NCBI GenBank assembly: GCA_030638825.1
Contig: DAOWDU010000036.1
Coordinates: forward strand, 1 to 43,948
DNA from: a bacterium
Lineage (GTDB): Bacteria > Patescibacteriota > Minisyncoccia > JAHIHE01 > JAGLIN01
Length of the DNA: 43,948 nt
Direction of reading: 5' to 3'
The notes below the pieces were generated by a model. That model worked only from the letters and a program-made list of their open reading frames with translations, had not been told where the DNA came from and made no database searches. Shown in pieces: positions 9,410 to 27,011 of this stretch; within the stretch, counting starts at the first letter, position 1; every line of letters begins with the position of its first letter. The translations under genes were made by a program, and so were the position numbers.

Positions 9410-9429
9410 GAATAACAATTTATTAACCT

Positions 9430-9570
9430 AACCTTCGGGCTTTTTGTTTGGAGTATGGTTTAAATCCATAAACACAAAAGCGGTCTTCTGATCGGTACTG
9501 TGTTTATGGTCTTTGCCTGAAAGGGCATTGGGTGATCTGAAAGGGTCGCCACCGACGGGGGACCTTTTTT
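9430..9570 (+). ncRNA. Structured RNA candidate ending in a terminator
   Basis: The region between the 59-aa and 58-aa genes is GC-richer than its neighbours and folds strongly. CCATAAACACA pairs with TGTGTTTATGG (11 bases) around a loop containing CGGTCTTCTGATCGG. Two small hairpins with a repeated CTGAAAGGG follow, then a GC-rich imperfect hairpin and six T at 9565-9570, which fix the direction as plus. It could be a free small RNA or an antitoxin or leader RNA. It matches no RNA family I can name. A 68-codon frame on the other strand is probably a shadow. Confidence 0.45.
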
Positions 9571-17228: not shown

Positions 17229-17645
17229 ATGCCAACTATTCAACAATTAGTTAGAAAATCAAGAAAAAAATCTGTAAAGAAATCAAAGACGCCGGCTCTT
17301 GCTCGGAATTTTAATTATCTTAAAAATAAACCGAAGACAGCGAAAAGAGGTAATCCGTTTAAGCGGGGAGTTTGTGTTAAAGTTGGAACAATGACGCCGA
17401 CAAAACCGAATTCAGCTTTGCGTAAAATTGCGAGAGTAAAGCTAACAAATGGATCTGAAGTAACAGCATATATTCCAGGAATTGGACATACTTTGCAAGA
17501 GCACTCTGTCGTTATGATTCGCGGCGGGAGAGTAAAAGATTTGCCAGGCGTTCGTTATCACATTGTCCGCGGAGTTCTTGACGCTGGCGGAGTGGAAGGA
17601 AGAAAACAAGAGAGAAGCAAATATGGAACGAAGAGACCGAAGTAA
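17229..17645 (+). CDS. rpsL: 30S ribosomal protein S12
   Basis: Decoding-centre protein of the small subunit. 138 residues starting [14 protein letters not shown]. The conserved loops [12 protein letters not shown] and [26 protein letters not shown] are present. It is about 14 residues longer than E. coli S12 because of an insert after the N-terminus ([17 protein letters not shown]), as in several Gram-positive and CPR forms. The lysine at the usual streptomycin-resistance position (TKPNS) is wild type. It is the first gene of a short operon with rpsG. Confidence 0.98.
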
Positions 17646-17648
17646 AAT

Positions 17649-17769
17649 AATTTCAAAATCCAAAGCTCAAATTATTCCAAATCAAGTTCAAAATCTAAAT
17701 ATCAAAAATTGTAAATAATTTGATATTTGAACTTTGGGTTTGATTTGGAACAATTTGGATTTTGAAATT
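17649..17769 (+). repeat. 121-bp imperfect hairpin between rpsL and rpsG
   Basis: AATTTCAAAATCCAAA at the left pairs with TTTGGATTTTGAAATT at the right. Inside, CCAAATCAA pairs with TTGATTTGG and AATATCAAA with TTTGATATT. The long AT-rich imperfect palindrome lies in the middle of the operon. It looks like a mobile-type palindromic repeat and may also affect rpsG expression. Confidence 0.75.
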
Positions 17770-17856
17770 TGTAATTTATAAACAGTATCTAATATTACAA
17801 TACTTTATATTACAAGAATATAAACAATAAACAATAATACATTTTATAAAAAAACT

Positions 17857-18327
17857 ATGGGTCGAAGAAAAAAGAAAATTGACAGAGGAATTAAGCCTGA
17901 TTTTAAATATAATAACGCGCTGGTTTCCAGATTTGTGAATTATATAATGGAAGAAGGCAAAAAGAGCGTAGCGACGAGAGTTGTCTATAAATCTTTTGAC
18001 ATCATTAAAGAAAAAACAAAACAAGATCCGTTGGAAGTTTTTGATAGCGCGGTTAATAAAGTTAGTCCGATTTTGGAAGTGAAATCAAAAAGAGTCGGCG
18101 GCGCAAATTATCAAGTTCCGATAGAAGTTCGCGGCGATAGAAGAATTCAACTGGCGTTTCGCTGGATTATCAGCGCGGCGAAAAGCAAAAAAGGGAAACC
18201 AATGGCGGAAAAATTAGCGGAAGAATTAATAGACATAACCAAAAACGCTGGTTCGGCGATGAAGAAAAGAGAAGATGTTCAAAAGATGGCAGAAGCAAAT
18301 AGGGCGTTTGCGCATTTTGCGAGATAA
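17857..18327 (+). CDS. rpsG: 30S ribosomal protein S7
   Basis: Primary 16S rRNA-binding protein of the small-subunit head. 156 residues of standard length. MGRRKKKIDRGIKPD opens the protein; VGGANYQVPIEVRGDRR and the C-terminal AEANRAFAHFAR are canonical. In most bacteria fusA and tuf follow, but here a strong terminator ends the operon after rpsG. It is separated from rpsL by a 121-base palindromic repeat, unusual for this operon. Confidence 0.98.
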   Translation: MGRRKKKIDRGIKPDFKYNNALVSRFVNYIMEEGKKSVATRVVYKSFDIIKEKTKQDPLEVFDSAVNKVSPILEVKSKRVGGANYQVPIEVRGDRRIQLAFRWIISAAKSKKGKPMAEKLAEELIDITKNAGSAMKKREDVQKMAEANRAFAHFAR

Positions 18328-18352
18328 GTATTGAGAAATTATTTAGTTTTTT

Positions 18353-18394
18353 AAAACAGGATGATATTTCATAATATCATCCTGTTTTTTTTAT
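18353..18394 (+). terminator. Terminator of the rpsL-rpsG operon
   Basis: 15-base arms AAAACAGGATGATAT (18353-18367) and ATATCATCCTGTTTT (18374-18388) with a six-base loop, then a T-run. Confidence 0.9.
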
Positions 18395-18508
18395 TAATTA
18401 TTTATTAGTGGGTTTTTTCTGCTTGATTTTAAAGCAGTTTTATGATAAGGTAAAAGTAATTAAATAAAAAATAAAGCTAATTTGTTTAAGGTTTTAAAAT
18501 AAAATATT

Positions 18509-20536
18509 ATGAATTTATCACAACTTATAAAATCCACTGGGAAATATGATTTGACGATTTTTTCCGCGGAGAGTATAGACAGGATTGAAAAAAACGTTTT
18601 TGAAAAAAACGGAAAGCATTTTATTAAATGTTTGAAAAGAGAAAAAGATATTCAGGCAAAACCGGAGGAGATTGTGAGGCAGTTAATGTTGGACAAGCTA
18701 ATCAATGAATATAATTATTCAACAGATTTATTAAGGGTTGAATTTTCTATTTCATTTGGCAGGGAAAAGAAGTTGGCGGATATTATTATTTTAAATAAAA
18801 AAGACAAGACAAGCGTTTATTGCGTTTTGGAAATTAAGAAACATAAAGGAAAAGACGGAAAAGATCAGTTGAAAAGCTATACGAACGCGACTGGCGCGCC
18901 TTTGGCGATTTGGACAAATGGGGTTGAAATTAATTTTTATGAACGGCTTGATCCGAATTATTTTGAACCGCTTTCTGATATTCCAAAAGCGAATGAAACA
19001 ATAGATGATGTAAAGAATGAAATTTTTACTTATTTGGAGTTGATGCAGAAAGATAAACTTCAAGAAGAAAGAAAATCTTTGAAAACTTTAATTCAAGAAA
19101 TGGAGGATGAGGTTTTAGCGAATGCTGGCGTGGATGTTTTTGAGGAAGTTTTTAAACTGATTTTTATAAAACTTTACGATGAAATGGAAAGTTCGGAAGA
19201 TAGGCAAATGATTGAACGAGACTTTAAAAGAATTAAAAAACAAAGTCCAAAATTAACAGACAAGGAGATTTTAACCAAAATTGACAATAGCGATTTTAGG
19301 CAATTAGAGTTTAGAAGCAGGGGCGATGCGTATCATACAAAAGAAGTTATCAATAAACTTTTCCAAAAGTCAAAAGAAAAATGGCCGGGAGTTTTTGAAA
19401 AAGGCGAGCCATTGCGAATTACGGATGAAAACCATTTGCAAATCTGCATTGGATTTTTGCAAAATGTAAAACTTTTCAATTCTAATTTGCAAGTGATTGA
19501 TGAAGCGTTTGAATATTTAGTCAATAAATCATCCAAAGGCGAAAAGGGACAATATTTCACACCAAGAAATGTGATTGATATGTGCGTCTATATGCTTAAT
19601 CCAAAGCCAAGCGAATTTATGATAGACACGGCTTGCGGGTCTTGCGGGTTCACTGTGCATACGCTTTTTAATGTTTGGGAAAAACTTGTCCATCAAGGCA
19701 AAGCGAATTTTAGCAATTTTTCAAATCAGAAATTAACAAAAGAACAGAAAGATTATGTTTTAAAAGTTTTTGGAATTGACTTTGATGAAAAATCGGTAAG
19801 GGTTGCGCGAACTTTAAATATGATTGCCGGAGATGGCAGGACAAATGTTTTGCATTTGAATTCGTTGGATTATACAAGGTGGGAAGAAAAATTGAAAGAC
19901 AGAGAATGGAGCAGAACTTATTTAGAGGGTTTTTACAGATTGCTTGATTTAGCCAAAGACAGAAAAAATCCAAAGGAATTTAATTTTGATATGGTAATGG
20001 CAAATCCGCCTTTTGCCGGAGATATTAAAGACAAAAGAATGACGGCTTGCTATGAAGTGGCTTATAAAAAAGATAAGCAGATTGATAATATTTCAAGGGA
20101 CATTTTGTTTATTGAAAGAAATTTGGATTTTCTAAAACCGGGCGGACGAATGGCGATTGTCTTGCCACAGGGCAGGTTTAATAATACGAGCGATGAAAGG
20201 ATAAGAGATTTTATAATGGAACGGGCGCGCCTTTTGGCTGTAGTCGGGCTTGACGGCAACACTTTTAAACCGCACACAGGAACAAAAACTTCTGTTTTGT
20301 TTGTGCAGAAATGGGACGATAAAATCAATCCGAAAGTTGATGATTATAAAATTTTTATGGCGGTTAGCGAAAATTCAGGCAAGGATAATTCAGGGGATGA
20401 GATTTATGAGATTGATAAAAATGGAGAGAGGAAACTTGATGAGCATGGGCATTTGAAACAGAAGCATGATTTGGATAATATTGCTTTTGCTTTTGAGAAA
20501 TGGGGGAAGGAGAATGGGTTGAGTTTTTGGAGATAA
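18509..20536 (+). CDS. Fused restriction endonuclease-N6-adenine methyltransferase
   Basis: 675 residues in two parts. Residues 50-115 form a type I HsdR-N-like PD-(D/E)XK nuclease: LRVEFSISFGREKKLADIII (Asp91) and CVLEIKK (Glu108, Lys110). Residues 340-640 are an HsdM-type adenine methyltransferase: QYFTPRNVID, motif I TACGSCGF (the usual ACGSGGF with one Gly changed to Cys) and catalytic NPPF at Asn499. No helicase domain exists. This cut-and-modify subunit plus a separate specificity subunit matches BcgI-like type IIB/IIG systems rather than classical type I. The specificity gene is at 22233, after two extra genes. Confidence 0.85.
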   Translation: MNLSQLIKSTGKYDLTIFSAESIDRIEKNVFEKNGKHFIKCLKREKDIQAKPEEIVRQLMLDKLINEYNYSTDLLRVEFSISFGREKKLADIIILNKKDKTSVYCVLEIKKHKGKDGKDQLKSYTNATGAPLAIWTNGVEINFYERLDPNYFEPLSDIPKANETIDDVKNEIFTYLELMQKDKLQEERKSLKTLIQEMEDEVLANAGVDVFEEVFKLIFIKLYDEMESSEDRQMIERDFKRIKKQSPKLTDKEILTKIDNSDFRQLEFRSRGDAYHTKEVINKLFQKSKEKWPGVFEKGEPLRITDENHLQICIGFLQNVKLFNSNLQVIDEAFEYLVNKSSKGEKGQYFTPRNVIDMCVYMLNPKPSEFMIDTACGSCGFTVHTLFNVWEKLVHQGKANFSNFSNQKLTKEQKDYVLKVFGIDFDEKSVRVARTLNMIAGDGRTNVLHLNSLDYTRWEEKLKDREWSRTYLEGFYRLLDLAKDRKNPKEFNFDMVMANPPFAGDIKDKRMTACYEVAYKKDKQIDNISRDILFIERNLDFLKPGGRMAIVLPQGRFNNTSDERIRDFIMERARLLAVVGLDGNTFKPHTGTKTSVLFVQKWDDKINPKVDDYKIFMAVSENSGKDNSGDEIYEIDKNGERKLDEHGHLKQKHDLDNIAFAFEKWGKENGLSFWR

Positions 20537-20565
20537 ATTTATTAATTTTTTAACTTAAAATAAAT

Positions 20566-21171
20566 ATGAGTGAAATTATTTACATATTTACGAATGAAGC
20601 AATGCCAGGATATATAAAAATCGGATTTACAAATAATTCGGTTGAGGAACGATTAAGACAATTAGACAGAACTGGCGTGCCTCTGCCTTTTGAAATTTAT
20701 TATGCGTGCGAAGTTGAAAATGCGCGAGAAGACGAAAAATGGTTACATAATATTTTTTCTGATAAAAGAGTTAGGGATGGACGAGAATTTTTTAGAATGG
20801 ATCCAGAAAGAGTTGTAATTGCGCTAAAACGAATACAGAAAAAAGACATTACGCCAACATCTTTATCAACGGTCACAGAATCCGAACGGAAAGAAATAGG
20901 TGAAAAAAAGAAAATCAGAGCACGCTTTGATTTTAAGACATATGGTATTTCAATTGGATCTGAAATATATTTTTCACGGGACGAATCAACAAAAGCAAAA
21001 GTATTGCCAAATAATTCAGTAGAGCTTCACGGAGAAAAAATAAGTATTTCAAAATCTGCAAAAAAATTGCTTGGTTATAAGAAACCAGTTGCTGGTACCT
21101 TATACTGGATGTATGAGGATGAAACTTTAGATGAGCGTCGCAGGCGTATGGATAATGAAAAAATAAGTTGA
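20566..21171 (+). CDS. GIY-YIG (T5orf172-like) protein with RAMA/DUF4357-like domain
   Basis: 201 residues. Residues 1-90 match the T5orf172/Mug113 branch of GIY-YIG nucleases: IIYIFTNEAMPGYIKIGFTN, SVEERLRQLDRTGVP and the acidic REFFRMDPERV. Residues 120-190 (IGSEIYFSRDESTKAKVLPN, SISKSAKKLLGY, GTLYWMYEDETL) resemble RAMA/DUF4357 modules, thought to recognise modified DNA or RNA. It lies 30 bases after the fused methyltransferase gene, in the same operon. A modification-dependent nuclease or regulator is plausible. The domain match for the second half is tentative. Confidence 0.65.
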   Translation: MSEIIYIFTNEAMPGYIKIGFTNNSVEERLRQLDRTGVPLPFEIYYACEVENAREDEKWLHNIFSDKRVRDGREFFRMDPERVVIALKRIQKKDITPTSLSTVTESERKEIGEKKKIRARFDFKTYGISIGSEIYFSRDESTKAKVLPNNSVELHGEKISISKSAKKLLGYKKPVAGTLYWMYEDETLDERRRRMDNEKIS

Positions 21172-21228
21172 AAGTCATTTTGAAATCTAAAAAATGACAA
21201 AAATAAGTTAATTTTTTAGAAATAGATT

Positions 21229-22248
21229 ATGTTTAAACTTTGGAGCGAAAATAATAAACAAGCAAGAGATTTTCTTAGACCAGATTTGGGATTGAGAAAT
21301 TGGAACGACTTAACTGCGGAAGAAAAAAACAAAATCTGGCATTATTTAGATTGGTATTTTTTTGGTGCTCAAATAAAAGAACACTATGGAATGATGGGTG
21401 ATGTTGAGAAAGAGTTTTATGAATTTTATGGAGATCATGAAGAAAAAGAATGCAAGAGAAATACTATCAATATGACAATTATATATATAAATGAAAATTC
21501 CAAGGCAAAAAGTTTTGCTGGCACATATCTTAAAAATCCAAACTTAAATACGGCTTGTCATGATTTTTATAATATTTTTATAGAACAAGAAGAATTTGTA
21601 GTAATAGAATTATTATCTATTTATGCAAAAACATTTTATAAACTTACAAAAAATAGCGGTTATATTTTTAAATCCGAAAAGGAAACTAGAAAAAATTTTT
21701 TACAGCGAAAAACAGAAGCAGAGTTTAAGTCTTTTGATGATTTTTCAAAAATAATAAATGATGTGTTTTTACAATTTGGTGTTAAGTATTATTTAACAAG
21801 AGATGGTTTTATACCTCGCCAAGATACTAAAATAATAAAAGAAGTTTACGAGCCAGTTTTAAGTTATTTATCGGATAAAAAATGGGAAAAAGTTAATGAA
21901 ATATTATACGATGCTTTTTCTGATTACAGAAAAAATACACCGCAAGGATATAGTAGCTGTATTACTCATACCGTTTCTACTTTACAAGCTTTCTTGCAAA
22001 TTTTAGTTAATGGGAAAATTGGTAGCAGTGAGGGTATTAATAATTTTATAAAACAGGCACAGAAAAGAGAATTAATTCCAATGGATAAATTTTCTAGCGA
22101 AATTTTTAAAAACATTGAATCAGTTTTAATGAGAGAAAGAGGGAAAACGGGAGATGCTCATCCAAAGAAAGAATACGCTAATGAAAAAAATGCTCGCACA
22201 ATGTTAAATTTAGTGATGATATTTTTTCAGCATTGTATTCAAAAATAA
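21229..22248 (+). CDS. Abi_C/HEPN-like probable defence protein
   Basis: 339 residues, mostly helical. The C-terminus matches the abortive-infection C-terminal (HEPN-related) pattern: LMRERGKTGDAHPKKEYANE followed by NARTMLNLVMIFF. The Arg plus His about seven residues later is the R-X(4-6)-H HEPN RNase motif. Residues 1-230 (MFKLWSENNKQARDFLRPDLG to SYLSDKKWEKVNE) are not recognised. HEPN proteins cut RNA and can kill infected cells. It lies inside the restriction operon between the nuclease-methyltransferase and specificity genes, and its end overlaps the specificity frame by 16 bases. Confidence 0.6.
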   Translation: MFKLWSENNKQARDFLRPDLGLRNWNDLTAEEKNKIWHYLDWYFFGAQIKEHYGMMGDVEKEFYEFYGDHEEKECKRNTINMTIIYINENSKAKSFAGTYLKNPNLNTACHDFYNIFIEQEEFVVIELLSIYAKTFYKLTKNSGYIFKSEKETRKNFLQRKTEAEFKSFDDFSKIINDVFLQFGVKYYLTRDGFIPRQDTKIIKEVYEPVLSYLSDKKWEKVNEILYDAFSDYRKNTPQGYSSCITHTVSTLQAFLQILVNGKIGSSEGINNFIKQAQKRELIPMDKFSSEIFKNIESVLMRERGKTGDAHPKKEYANEKNARTMLNLVMIFFQHCIQK

Positions 22249-22844
22249 TTAAAAAGATTGAGGAATATAAAAATGGGTGGGATCATGTTAGAAATATAGT
22301 AGATCGGAAAAAAGGGGTTGAAGTTGGGAGCGAGGCATATCAGCAAGATGGGATGTCATTTGGGAGAGTTGCGGATTGTTCAATAAACGGAGTTGCGGAC
22401 ACAGGCAAGAAAATTTCAAAAGAACTTTATCAAGAATTAAAAAATGATTATCAGCCGAAGCGGGACGATATTTTATTTACCAAAGACGGAACAATCGGTT
22501 TAAGTTATGTTGTCAAAGAAGAATTTGAAGTAATTTTAAGCGGAGCATTTTTGAGATTAAGCTTAAAAGATAAATATCAAACATTTGAAAAAGAATGCTT
22601 GTCTCTCATTTTCAATTCTATTATTTCCAAAATGCAAGTTGAAAAATTATCAGGCGGAGCAATAATCGCCCACTTGAAACCATCTGATTTTGAAAAATTC
22701 AAAATTCCGCTTATCAATCTAAAAATTCAAAAACAGATTGCGGAGAAAATACGAGAAAGTCATAAACTAAGAAAAGAAAGCAAGGAGCTTTTGGAAGAAG
22801 CGAAAAAGAGAGTTGAGAAAGAGATTGAGAAAGAGGGAAAATAA
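22233..22844 (+). CDS. hsdS: Half-size HsdS-like specificity subunit
   Basis: 203 residues with one target-recognition domain: GWDHVRNIVDRKKGVEVGSE, YQPKRDDILFTKDGTIGLSY, SGGAIIAHLKPSDFEKFKIPL, then the coiled-coil spacer IQKQIAEKIRESHKLRKESKE. Full HsdS proteins have two such domains; half-size forms dimerise and recognise symmetrical sites. The start is uncertain: TTG 22233 overlaps the previous gene, and no better ATG precedes the conserved region. It ends the operon. Coding style resembles the fused subunit at 18509, with which it presumably works. Confidence 0.8.
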   Translation: MYSKIIKKIEEYKNGWDHVRNIVDRKKGVEVGSEAYQQDGMSFGRVADCSINGVADTGKKISKELYQELKNDYQPKRDDILFTKDGTIGLSYVVKEEFEVILSGAFLRLSLKDKYQTFEKECLSLIFNSIISKMQVEKLSGGAIIAHLKPSDFEKFKIPLINLKIQKQIAEKIRESHKLRKESKELLEEAKKRVEKEIEKEGK

Positions 22845-22876
22845 AAAAATCTTAAAACTTAACTTAACTTAAAACT

Positions 22877-24616
22877 ATGACAACTAAAAAACAAAATCTC
22901 TATCTCATAATTTCCTTCGCTTTAACTATAGGAATATTAGCTGATTATTTATTTTATCAAAAATCAATCGGGATTTCTTTTTTTGTGTTTAATTTAGTTG
23001 TGATTATTTTCTCGCTAATTTTAATTAGAAAATTTGGAATAAAAATAAATAAAATTCAAGTTTTTATTTTGCTCGCTCTCCTTTTATTTTCCGCTGGAGT
23101 ATTTTTAAGATCAAGTTCGTTTTTAACATTTTTTAATTTCTGGGGAAGCATTTATTTACTGTTTTTCTTTTTCAGTTTATTCCTGAATAAAAATATTCTT
23201 GATTTCAGTTTTTTGAAATACATTATTTCTCCGCCATCTTTTTTCTTAAAATCTTTTCGTGGAGCAGGAAGATTTATTGAGAAATGCAAAAACGCAATTC
23301 CAGAAAATAAAAAAATTGGTTCTGAAAAATTTAGAAGCGTGCTGAAAGGAGTTGTTATCGCTCTGCCTTTTTTAATTATCTTCTGCTGGCTTTTGTCTTC
23401 GGCGGATTTAGTATTTCAGGCGTATCTTGGAAAAATATTTAACTTTGATTTTAATCTTAGTATAATTTCAAGAACGCTGATAATTTTAGTTTTTACTTAT
23501 ATTTTTCTTGGAGTTTTCTCTAAGATTGCGGGAAGTAAAAACGGAGAAGAAATACAAGGTTCAGGACAGAGTCCTGAACCAACATCGATATCAACATCTA
23601 ATGAATCAGAAGATAAATCTTTAGGTTTTATTGAGTCGTCAACGGTTCTAATTTTGATTGAATTATTATTTTTGTCTTTTATTATTATTCAATTTTTCTA
23701 TCTTTTCGGCGGGAAAGATTATGTTTGGGGTATTGAGGAATATATTACTTATTCCGAATATGCTAAAAATGGTTTTAATGAATTACTCTGTGTTTCAATT
23801 ATTTCTTTTCTCTTGCTTTATGGATTAGAAAAGTCAAGTTTTAGAAAAAGCCTAAAAGAGAAAAAAATATTTAAAATCTTGAGCGCTGTTTTAATTGTAG
23901 AGATGTCTGTCATTATTTATTCCGCTTGGACAAGAATGGCTGTTTATGTTGAGGGCTACGGTTTGACTTTTTCCAGATTTTTAGTTTTTGTTTTTCTGCT
24001 CTGGATTTTTTCTGTGTTCTTAATTTTCCTTTATAAAAAAATATTCCAAGAAAAGAAAGAAGCGGTTTTTCTGTTTTCTATTTTTTGCTTGTCTCTTATA
24101 TTTTGGACGGGAATAAATATAATAAACCCTGATGTTTTTATCGCTAAAGAAAATATAAAAAGGATAACGCAGGGAAAAAAATTGGATTCTTATTATTTAT
24201 CCCGCTTATCTGTTGACGCTATTCCCGAAACAGTAAAGATTTTTCAGATGGATAATGTGAGCGAGGAAACAAAAATGGAAATAGCGAGAGATTTATATTA
24301 TCGCTGCGATTTTCTTTTTAGAAATAGATATAATTATGCCCATGGAAGCTTTTTGGGCGATCCTGTTTCTTTTAAAAGGAAGTTAGAAAGTGCCGAGAAA
24401 AATCAAAATAAAAATTGGCAGTCATTTAATCTCTCCAGAAAAAAAGCATTGAAAGCTTTGAATGAAAATTACGAAGAGATTGTGGAATATCAAAGCAAAT
24501 ATTTTAAGAAACAAGCGGAAGAGTGCTGGAAGGAGATAGAAGATTGTAAGGGAGTGTGGGGATGCCACGAAGGAAGATGTAAGATGTATGAAAAAAATGC
24601 GGAGATGGATAAATAA
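22877..24616 (+). CDS. DUF4173-like polytopic membrane protein
   Basis: 579 residues with about ten to twelve hydrophobic segments, beginning IISFALTIGILADYLFY and ending in a soluble C-terminal tail (residues about 430-579). The segment PFLIIFCWLLSSADLVFQAY and the later VEMSVIIYSAWTRMAVYVEGYGLTFSR fit the DUF4153/DUF4173 family. Function is unknown. The tail contains several Cys near the end (CWKEIEDCKGVWGCHEGRCK). A 23-base palindrome (23558-23580) is embedded in a cytoplasmic loop, coding GSGQSPEP. It starts 33 bases after hsdS and may be read through from the restriction operon. Confidence 0.7.
   Translation: MTTKKQNLYLIISFALTIGILADYLFYQKSIGISFFVFNLVVIIFSLILIRKFGIKINKIQVFILLALLLFSAGVFLRSSSFLTFFNFWGSIYLLFFFFSLFLNKNILDFSFLKYIISPPSFFLKSFRGAGRFIEKCKNAIPENKKIGSEKFRSVLKGVVIALPFLIIFCWLLSSADLVFQAYLGKIFNFDFNLSIISRTLIILVFTYIFLGVFSKIAGSKNGEEIQGSGQSPEPTSISTSNESEDKSLGFIESSTVLILIELLFLSFIIIQFFYLFGGKDYVWGIEEYITYSEYAKNGFNELLCVSIISFLLLYGLEKSSFRKSLKEKKIFKILSAVLIVEMSVIIYSAWTRMAVYVEGYGLTFSRFLVFVFLLWIFSVFLIFLYKKIFQEKKEAVFLFSIFCLSLIFWTGINIINPDVFIAKENIKRITQGKKLDSYYLSRLSVDAIPETVKIFQMDNVSEETKMEIARDLYYRCDFLFRNRYNYAHGSFLGDPVSFKRKLESAEKNQNKNWQSFNLSRKKALKALNENYEEIVEYQSKYFKKQAEECWKEIEDCKGVWGCHEGRCKMYEKNAEMDK
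23558..23580. repeat. Palindrome inside the DUF4173-like gene
   Basis: GGTTCAGGAC and GTCCTGAACC flank AGA. It encodes a Gly/Ser/Pro linker in a loop, so the insertion is probably tolerated. Confidence 0.6.
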
Positions 24617-25517: not shown

Positions 25518-27011
25518 ATGCAAAACCGTACTCTCTATTTCGGCGACAATTTAGAAATCTTACGGAAGAAAATCAAAGACGAGAGTTTTGATTTGATTTA
25601 TCTTGACCCGCCGTTTAATTCTAATCGAAATTACAATGTGCTTTTTAAAGAAGGCATCCAAGATAGCCCAGCGCAAATTAAAGCGTTTGATGATTCTTGG
25701 CATTGGACAAGAGAATCAAAAGAAGCGTTTGATTATTTGGTGACTAAAACCAATGAAGACATTTCCAGTTTAATGCAAGCGTTAGAAAAGATGGTTGGGC
25801 ATAATGATATGTTAGCGTATTTGACGATGATGACAGTTCGTCTGATTGAACTGCACCGGGTTTTGAAAAAGACAGGAAGTTTATATCTACATTGCGACCC
25901 AACCGCTAGCCATTATTTGAAAATTGTTTTGGATGCGATTTTTTGGAAGAAGAATTTTAGAAATGAGATTATTTGGTGTTATCGCGGAGCTGGATATCCT
26001 AAAAAAGATTTTGGTAAAAGGCATGACATAATATTCAGATATTCAAAAACAGATAATTATATTTTTAACCTTGATGATGTCAGAGAAGAATATGCTGAAG
26101 CGACAAAAGAGAGATTTAAATATCATATTGGAAACATAAGAAAAGGAAAAGATTTTGGAGCTCAAGAATTAAATCCTTTGGGAAAACAGCCTGATGATTG
26201 GTGGCAGATACAACCATTAGCTCCATCATCCAAAGAGCGGCTTGGCTATCCAACTCAAAAACCCGAAGCGCTATTAGAGAGAATAATCAAAGCAAGTTCA
26301 AAAGAAGGGGATTGGATTTTAGATCCCTTTTGCGGGTGCGGAACGACTGTCGCTGTTTCAGAAAAATTGAAAAGAAATTGGGTGGGGATTGATGTTACTT
26401 CTCTGGCGATAAATTTAATAAAATACAGAATTAAAAATCAGTTTGGTTTAGGAAATAAACAAATTTTTGTTGACGGACTGCCGACTGATTTAGCGGGAGC
26501 GAAAGAATTATTTGAAAAAGATCCTTTTGAGTTTGAATATTGGGCATCAGATTTGGTAAACGCTATTCCGCCACATGGCAAAAGCAAAGACAATATGCGA
26601 GGAGCGGATAAAGGCGTTGACGGAGTTATTAACATTCTCAGAAATATAGTTAACGGCAACAAAGAATACGGCAAAATAATTGTTCAAATCAAAGGCGGCA
26701 AAGTGCAAAGAAATCAAATAGCAACTCTGAAAGGCGATGTTGACAGAGAAAAAGCGGAAGCGGGAGTTTTCATAACCTTAGAAAAACCGACCAAGCCAAT
26801 GAAAAGCGAAGCGGTTGACGCGGGAACTTTTACTATTCCAATAACGAACAAAGTTGAATTTCCTAAAATCCAAATTTTAACTATTGAAGAATTATTGCGA
26901 GGGAAGAAGCCAGATTTGCCACGATATGGTTTAGTGAAGAATTATTACAAAGAAGCGAAAGCGAGTGAAATGGGAGGAGGCGGTTTAGTGCGGGAGGGGT
27001 TGGGGCTGTAA
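25518..27011 (+). CDS. Beta-class DNA methyltransferase fused to Mrr-like nuclease domain
   Basis: 497 residues. The motif order is DPPF (Asp30) first and DPFCGCGTT (from Asp269) late, the beta-class order of N4-cytosine or N6-adenine methyltransferases (type III Mod-like). Residues about 355-460 (GADKGVDGVINILRN ... GKIIVQIKGGKV) carry an Asp and a QxK motif of Mrr-type PD-(D/E)XK nucleases. A self-contained enzyme that modifies and cuts is therefore likely (type IIG-like). It is separate from the 18509 system and needs no specificity subunit. Target sequence cannot be deduced. Confidence 0.85.
   Translation: MQNRTLYFGDNLEILRKKIKDESFDLIYLDPPFNSNRNYNVLFKEGIQDSPAQIKAFDDSWHWTRESKEAFDYLVTKTNEDISSLMQALEKMVGHNDMLAYLTMMTVRLIELHRVLKKTGSLYLHCDPTASHYLKIVLDAIFWKKNFRNEIIWCYRGAGYPKKDFGKRHDIIFRYSKTDNYIFNLDDVREEYAEATKERFKYHIGNIRKGKDFGAQELNPLGKQPDDWWQIQPLAPSSKERLGYPTQKPEALLERIIKASSKEGDWILDPFCGCGTTVAVSEKLKRNWVGIDVTSLAINLIKYRIKNQFGLGNKQIFVDGLPTDLAGAKELFEKDPFEFEYWASDLVNAIPPHGKSKDNMRGADKGVDGVINILRNIVNGNKEYGKIIVQIKGGKVQRNQIATLKGDVDREKAEAGVFITLEKPTKPMKSEAVDAGTFTIPITNKVEFPKIQILTIEELLRGKKPDLPRYGLVKNYYKEAKASEMGGGGLVREGLGL

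Follow-up and report, generated by a model that had tools for sequence, protein, structure and literature searches.

Why should genes for two predicted nucleases stand between the modification (M) and specificity (S) genes of a restriction-modification (RM) system, and do they belong to it? The question is raised by an operon in the 43,948-nt contig DAOWDU010000036.1 of a Patescibacteriota bacterium (assembly GCA_030638825.1), the whole of which is called the window here. The operon runs from M, a nuclease-methyltransferase fusion, through a GIY-YIG-RAMA protein and a HEPN-like protein to a half-length S subunit (Table 1), with the order and spacing (29, 57 and −16 bases) noted in a preliminary description agreeing with the coordinates of the open reading frames. 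No helicase gene lies inside the operon, as had also been noted, and HSDR_N matches in the genome are confined to other contigs. That description saw in the arrangement a layered-defence operon; what stands of this is a helicase-free RM system with two predicted nucleases as cargo, while the idea of a conserved four-gene system does not. From the comparison of genes and loci set out below, this is probably a horizontally acquired, helicase-free RM operon carrying defence cargo in the slot between M and S.

Table 1. Features of the operon and its junctions in the window.
Feature	Coordinates	Strand	Evidence
M: N-terminal PD-(D/E)XK (HSDR_N_2) fused to N6-adenine methyltransferase	18509..20536	+	Pfam, PADLOC, motifs
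GIY-YIG (T5orf172) nuclease with C-terminal RAMA-like domain, PADLOC PDC-S57	20566..21171	+	Pfam, PADLOC, alignment, hhalign
HEPN-like protein, predicted RNase	21229..22248	+	Sub-cutoff profile matches, motif, 52% identity to L015 protein
Half-length specificity subunit S: one target-recognition domain and C-terminal helix	22233..22844	+	Methylase_S 1e-12; aligns with C-terminal halves of relatives' S
HEPN/S junction, proposed deletion scar	22230..22260	+	HEPN end kept in L015, S start kept in L017; deletion inferred
Inserted block, rpsG to DUF4153 gene	18328..22875		Empty site in same-genus genome G380
rpsG terminator hairpin, 16-pair stem and T run, 5′ of operon	18353..18388	+	Hairpin scan

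Changing cargo in the M-S slot

Genomes of the phylum (380) and plasmids were searched for relatives of M; 13 of the 380 genomes, with the window's own counted, have one at E ≤ 1e-60. Counting the window, M and S are both visible at 14 loci of the phylum, 12 of which have genes in between, mostly with short gaps or overlaps next to M and S; L020 and L094 were left uncounted, the contig ending before S. The slot that holds the GIY-YIG-RAMA and HEPN genes in the window holds genes for an AAA ATPase in L017 (where S runs off the contig), RhuM and a 258-aa protein in L018, Schlafen-AlbA in L021, DUF3800 in L022, DUF3800 and a 184-aa protein in L023, DUF6119 in L024, PemK and a 185-aa protein in L025, NYN in L026 and an OLD-like protein in L027. 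In L097 and L096, which represent a more distant M branch (~30% identity), it holds DUF3800 with a 214-aa protein and a Y1 transposase with DUF5677, respectively. M is directly followed by S in L019 and in L016, where a GIY-YIG gene lies upstream. Among the plasmid relatives, M and S are adjacent in Klebsiella and Trichormus and fused in Picosynechococcus. The preliminary description had proposed looking for the same four-gene order elsewhere; it has no second example among the relatives' loci, the GIY-YIG and HEPN genes never recur as a pair and the slot contents differ nearly every time, such that a conserved four-gene system was rejected. Judged from gene content across these loci, the M-S gap is a swappable cargo position and not part of a fixed four-gene system.

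The distant branch provides a natural experiment on cargo exchange. L097 is a second M-S locus of the window's own genome (G000:C40 8000-20000) and L096 (G380:C85) is its orthologue. Over 3.2 kb, the flanking gene and M share 84% identity at the DNA level between the two loci, and identity is 81-93% in parts of S. The genes lying from M to S are unrelated, and identity breaks within tens of bases of the end of M and the start of S. As read from these alignments, the pair documents a cargo exchange in which M and S stayed in place, in two species of one genus. The proposed mechanism is recombination at the conserved end of M and the conserved start of S.

Accessory genes between RM subunit genes are known from the mlo/rlo genes of the Campylobacter jejuni Type I loci (PMC5183652), and DarTG2 sits within an E. 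coli Type I RM in the RptR-RM island (PMC12255303). The window resembles these loci in having accessory, often defence, genes between RM genes but differs in its M fusion, the known cases being Type I systems with a helicase. The PADLOC PDC families themselves derive from "guilt-by-embedding" (PMC10855318, PMC12988326). Embedded RM cargo is thus already known, and what is new is its extension to a helicase-free RM family, with a half-length S. In these small-genome bacteria an RM family whose M-S gap acts as a cargo slot, with a swap between orthologous loci, offers a focused place to seek defence genes.

A separate observation concerns six loci of the more distant M clade (L022-L027), at which a similar gene lies just 5′ of M. 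In L022 this encodes a LexA DNA-binding domain and Peptidase_S24 (Pfam), the other five being assigned by sequence likeness, hinting at control by DNA damage.

Properties of the four proteins

M (675 aa) contains the Pfam domains HSDR_N_2 (1e-24, aa 52-159) and N6_Mtase (1.6e-32) and matches PADLOC MTase_I PDLC03034 at 5.6e-260. Its nuclease signature D91...E108-x-K110 is conserved in 16/16 aligned proteins and the stretches FTPR, TACGSCGF (motif I) and NPPF are intact. The cysteine in motif I, singled out in the preliminary description as unusual, turns out to be typical of the subfamily with "GSCGF" common to five of M's closest relatives. The best solved-structure match is the BsaXI RM enzyme (3.4e-24), and the label "BcgI-like" is apt for the architecture of M, which like the Type IIB enzymes BcgI and BsaXI has nuclease and adenine methyltransferase in one chain, with a separate S and without a helicase. 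It does not extend to S, which has one recognition domain rather than two, and in the window cargo lies between M and S. M also resembles MAD2 (303 bits) and S resembles MAD5 (58 bits) of the MADS system, but these scores are far under the curated cut-offs of 720 and 400, respectively, and no other MADS gene was matched in the operon, so membership was dropped.

The window S has 203 aa against ~390-470 aa in relatives, with a single Methylase_S domain that aligns best from residue ~234-281 onward of full-length S, corresponding to the second repeat; by this alignment it represents the second half of a subunit that otherwise has two domains. Its start codon is TTG with no obvious ribosome-binding site. 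The HEPN-like protein ends in conserved residues (HCIQK, with the stop codon at 22246-22248) that overlap the conserved residues opening the second S repeat (YSKIIKKIEEYK); the former are kept in L015 and the latter in L017. At the point where the window HEPN meets S, the L015 protein runs on into DUF3800. A single deletion, reaching from where the HEPN domain ends to mid-S, could explain both the half-length S and the missing DUF3800 tail, a suggestion drawn from a single HEPN relative. When engineered, half-S methyltransferases form dimers and methylate a palindrome (PMC6158711), and truncated S subunits can function as dimers, as in the EcoDXXI derivatives listed in PMC3874165. The window operon resembles the engineered nuclease-HsdM fusions and half-HsdS subunits (PMC6158711) in carrying a nuclease on M and a half-length S of the kind that dimerises on a palindrome; it differs in being natural and in combining both changes in one operon. 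The half-length S offers a naturally occurring case on which to test a step proposed for how Type II enzymes evolved from Type I.

The GIY-YIG protein matches T5orf172 (Pfam, 6.3e-18) and, over its full length (residues 2-197), PADLOC PDC-S57 (2.8e-67). Its 17 homologues (17/17) match PDC-S57 too, and in them Y6, K18, G20, R29, E57, R68 and E74 are invariant. The RAMA-like module claimed for it finds no match to Pfam RAMA PF18755 at E ≤ 10 but is upheld by profile comparison, in which the C-terminal profile of 17 proteins aligned by hhalign with the CcrM-type RAMA at P 1.5e-5, scoring 31.9 against ≤14.5 in 50 column shuffles, consistent with a resemblance that is remote but real. Single-sequence structure prediction gave a poor model, with a predicted local distance difference test (pLDDT) of 36, a search of solved structures with the GIY profile gave no match and with the single sequence one insignificant match, and a search of viral contigs with the protein found no relative. 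A RAMA-bearing methyltransferase (PF18755 match) is encoded on contig 54 of the host genome.

The full-length GIY-YIG-RAMA family is present in 15/380 genomes and adjoins or lies near RM genes in 11 of the 14 loci other than the window's. The partners are Type III RM genes in L077 and L089, Type II-like RM genes with N6_N4_Mtase in L078 and L087 (some genes away in the latter), Type I RM genes in L080 and L084, an EcoRI-type methylase with a GmrSD-type gene in L083 and L086, an EcoRI-type methylase after which the contig ends in L085, a helicase-Eco57I fusion in L081 and the M family itself in L016; L085 and L086 were assigned by likeness to L083. L079, L082 and L088 are not RM-adjacent. Genomes have ~1.6 matches to methyltransferase domains each, at which density ~0.7% of randomly chosen genes would have one no more than two genes away; a binomial figure on this expectation is a rough guide only, given the general clustering of defence genes and the greater distance in L087. 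At the other rpsG loci, 0/27 had an RM gene within 1.5 kb. Membership of PDC-S57 is something the window protein shares with this family, and PDC assignments are predictions to which the present work adds a survey of partners across RM types. One closely similar subtype is found both in L089, where it lies between Mod and Res of the Type III system, and in L016, where it precedes M, with a similar small helix-turn-helix gene near each.

The HEPN-like protein had been described as HEPN/Abi_C. Its HEPN character is suggested by an R304-x6-H311 motif at 22138-22161, shared with its one relative (L015), and by a sub-cutoff match to NCBIfam STM4504/CBY_0614 (9e-8), but a Pfam scan gave no family at E ≤ 0.1, Abi_C included. 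It also weakly matches the PADLOC candidate PDC-S32 (6.9e-6), an assignment that is itself a prediction, and a structure model from a 2-sequence alignment was too poor to bear on the fold (pLDDT 44). The sole relative, which is 52% identical and comes from Ca. Roizmanbacteria (L015:5929-7539), is a fusion to DUF3800 whose gene directly follows S in a Type I operon that also encodes an EcoEI-type helicase subunit. DUF3800 also occurs as M-S cargo in L022, L023 and L097 without HEPN. Relatives are absent from the other 379 genomes searched, the STM4504 family was met at the window locus only in 287 genomes, and searches of viral contigs, plasmids and solved structures with the protein gave no match.

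Competing explanations

Under the favoured reading of an acquired RM operon with exchangeable cargo, M and S would methylate a bipartite site and cut DNA unmethylated there. The half-length S would pair with itself, two M and two half-S together recognising a palindromic target, which is expected because S has one recognition domain. The GIY-YIG-RAMA protein would be a second DNA nuclease or a DNA-binding accessory and the HEPN-like protein an RNase stopping the infected cell, both being added layers co-expressed with the RM system rather than RM subunits. The cargo is RM-associated, in that the GIY-YIG-RAMA family is RM-adjacent at 11/14 other loci and the HEPN relative follows a Type I S; it is therefore not there by chance, yet it is interchangeable. 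Several points weigh against this reading. Protection, cutting and toxicity are all predictions, and the RM association may reflect defence-island clustering, not joint function. Engineered nuclease-HsdM fusions did not restrict, and an engineered separate half-S enzyme modified DNA with no clear in vivo restriction (PMC6158711). The half-length S is carried by one locus only and may be a broken copy, and the identity of the HEPN-like protein, which has a single relative, rests on one motif and a sub-cutoff match.

The possibility of a broken copy is taken furthest by an explanation that is somewhat unlikely, in which a deletion took the first half of S, and perhaps the DUF3800 tail of the HEPN-like protein, leaving M without a working recognition partner such that only the cargo works, or nothing does. 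It accounts for an S half as long as the others examined, for a conserved HEPN end joined straight to a conserved second S repeat and for the weak TTG start, but the frames of M, the GIY-YIG gene, the HEPN gene and the remaining S are open with motifs intact, and truncated S can work as dimers (EcoDXXI derivatives, PMC3874165; PMC6158711). It is also unlikely that the HEPN RNase is a guard of the PrrC type, kept inactive by the RM complex and freed by a phage anti-restriction protein. PrrC, a HEPN RNase embedded in the Type IC locus EcoprrI (PMC3710099), sets a precedent for a HEPN-type RNase gene inside an RM operon and at least 16 HEPN clades are linked to RM (PMC3710099, PMC12707154). However, the window protein has no ATPase domain by Pfam, where PrrC has an ABC-ATPase, its RM system is not Type I, and with cargo swapping between a conserved M and S and the HEPN relative accompanying a different kind of RM system no specific M-HEPN pairing is visible.

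For the GIY-YIG-RAMA protein the preliminary description suggested modification reading, which as a trigger fits poorly with the recurrent place of the family beside adenine methyltransferases. Another explanation makes the protein a Type IV enzyme cutting N6-methyladenine (m6A) DNA and catching phages with acquired methylation. A possible role as m6A-dependent nucleases has been suggested for fusions of GIY-YIG to RAMA (PMC11037411), and the hhalign relation to RAMA fits this; however, confirmation of an m6A preference failed for the one RAMA protein tested (PMC11037411), and an enzyme triggered by m6A in general would attack its own host, given how regularly the family accompanies adenine methyltransferases of several types. 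The Type IV explanation is given little credence. Because the family recurs beside adenine methyltransferases from several kinds of RM system, experiments can ask directly whether m6A is read by RAMA, ignored by it or blocks it. That the two genes are there by chance, GIY-YIG as a selfish nuclease of the homing type and HEPN as a stray insert, is highly improbable: the four-gene order is unique and T5orf172 nucleases are common in phages, but phage matches never cover 80% of the GIY-YIG protein and its full-length family is RM-adjacent at 11 of 14 other loci. The test that the preliminary description attached to chance cargo, absence of the middle genes from relatives or occurrence only far from restriction genes, comes out against chance for both. 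Bolder than the favoured reading, and doubtful, is a natural "proto-Type IIG" enzyme, in which the nuclease-methyltransferase and a half-S homodimer act on a palindromic split site while GIY-YIG-RAMA is a general partner of adenine-methylating Type I, II and III RM systems, reading methylation without attacking the host; if so, it uses building blocks that protein engineering failed to join into an enzyme that restricts.

Insertion beside rpsG

DNA of the same-genus genome G380 aligns to the window as far as 18327, the end of rpsG, and resumes at ~22876 at the DUF4153 gene, with ~170 unrelated bases separating the two flanks and DUF4153 following rpsG directly. The order rpsG-DUF4153 is also present in two other genera of the family. 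On this comparison the 4.5-kb block is a recent insertion between the two genes. The strong terminator after rpsG makes it probable that the operon has its own promoter, within 18389-18508. The G+C content of third codon positions (GC3) is lower in the GIY-YIG and HEPN cargo than in M and S (Fisher p 3e-7).

A second RM-like gene, fusing N6_N4_Mtase to a Mrr-type nuclease domain (Pfam), lies 2.7 kb downstream of the operon at 25518-27011, and it is probably a second, separate insertion because G380 lacks it at that position. The host genome (1.15 Mb in 57 contigs) is rich in methyltransferases for its small size, with 4 N6_Mtase and 6 N6_N4_Mtase matches. In this family rpsL-rpsG has no fusA behind it (window 17229-24616, relatives L029-L040), unlike in other families of the class, where most relatives have the gene at that place. 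A LOOT RNA (Rfam RF03000, 65 bits) lies at 9425-9550 of the window.

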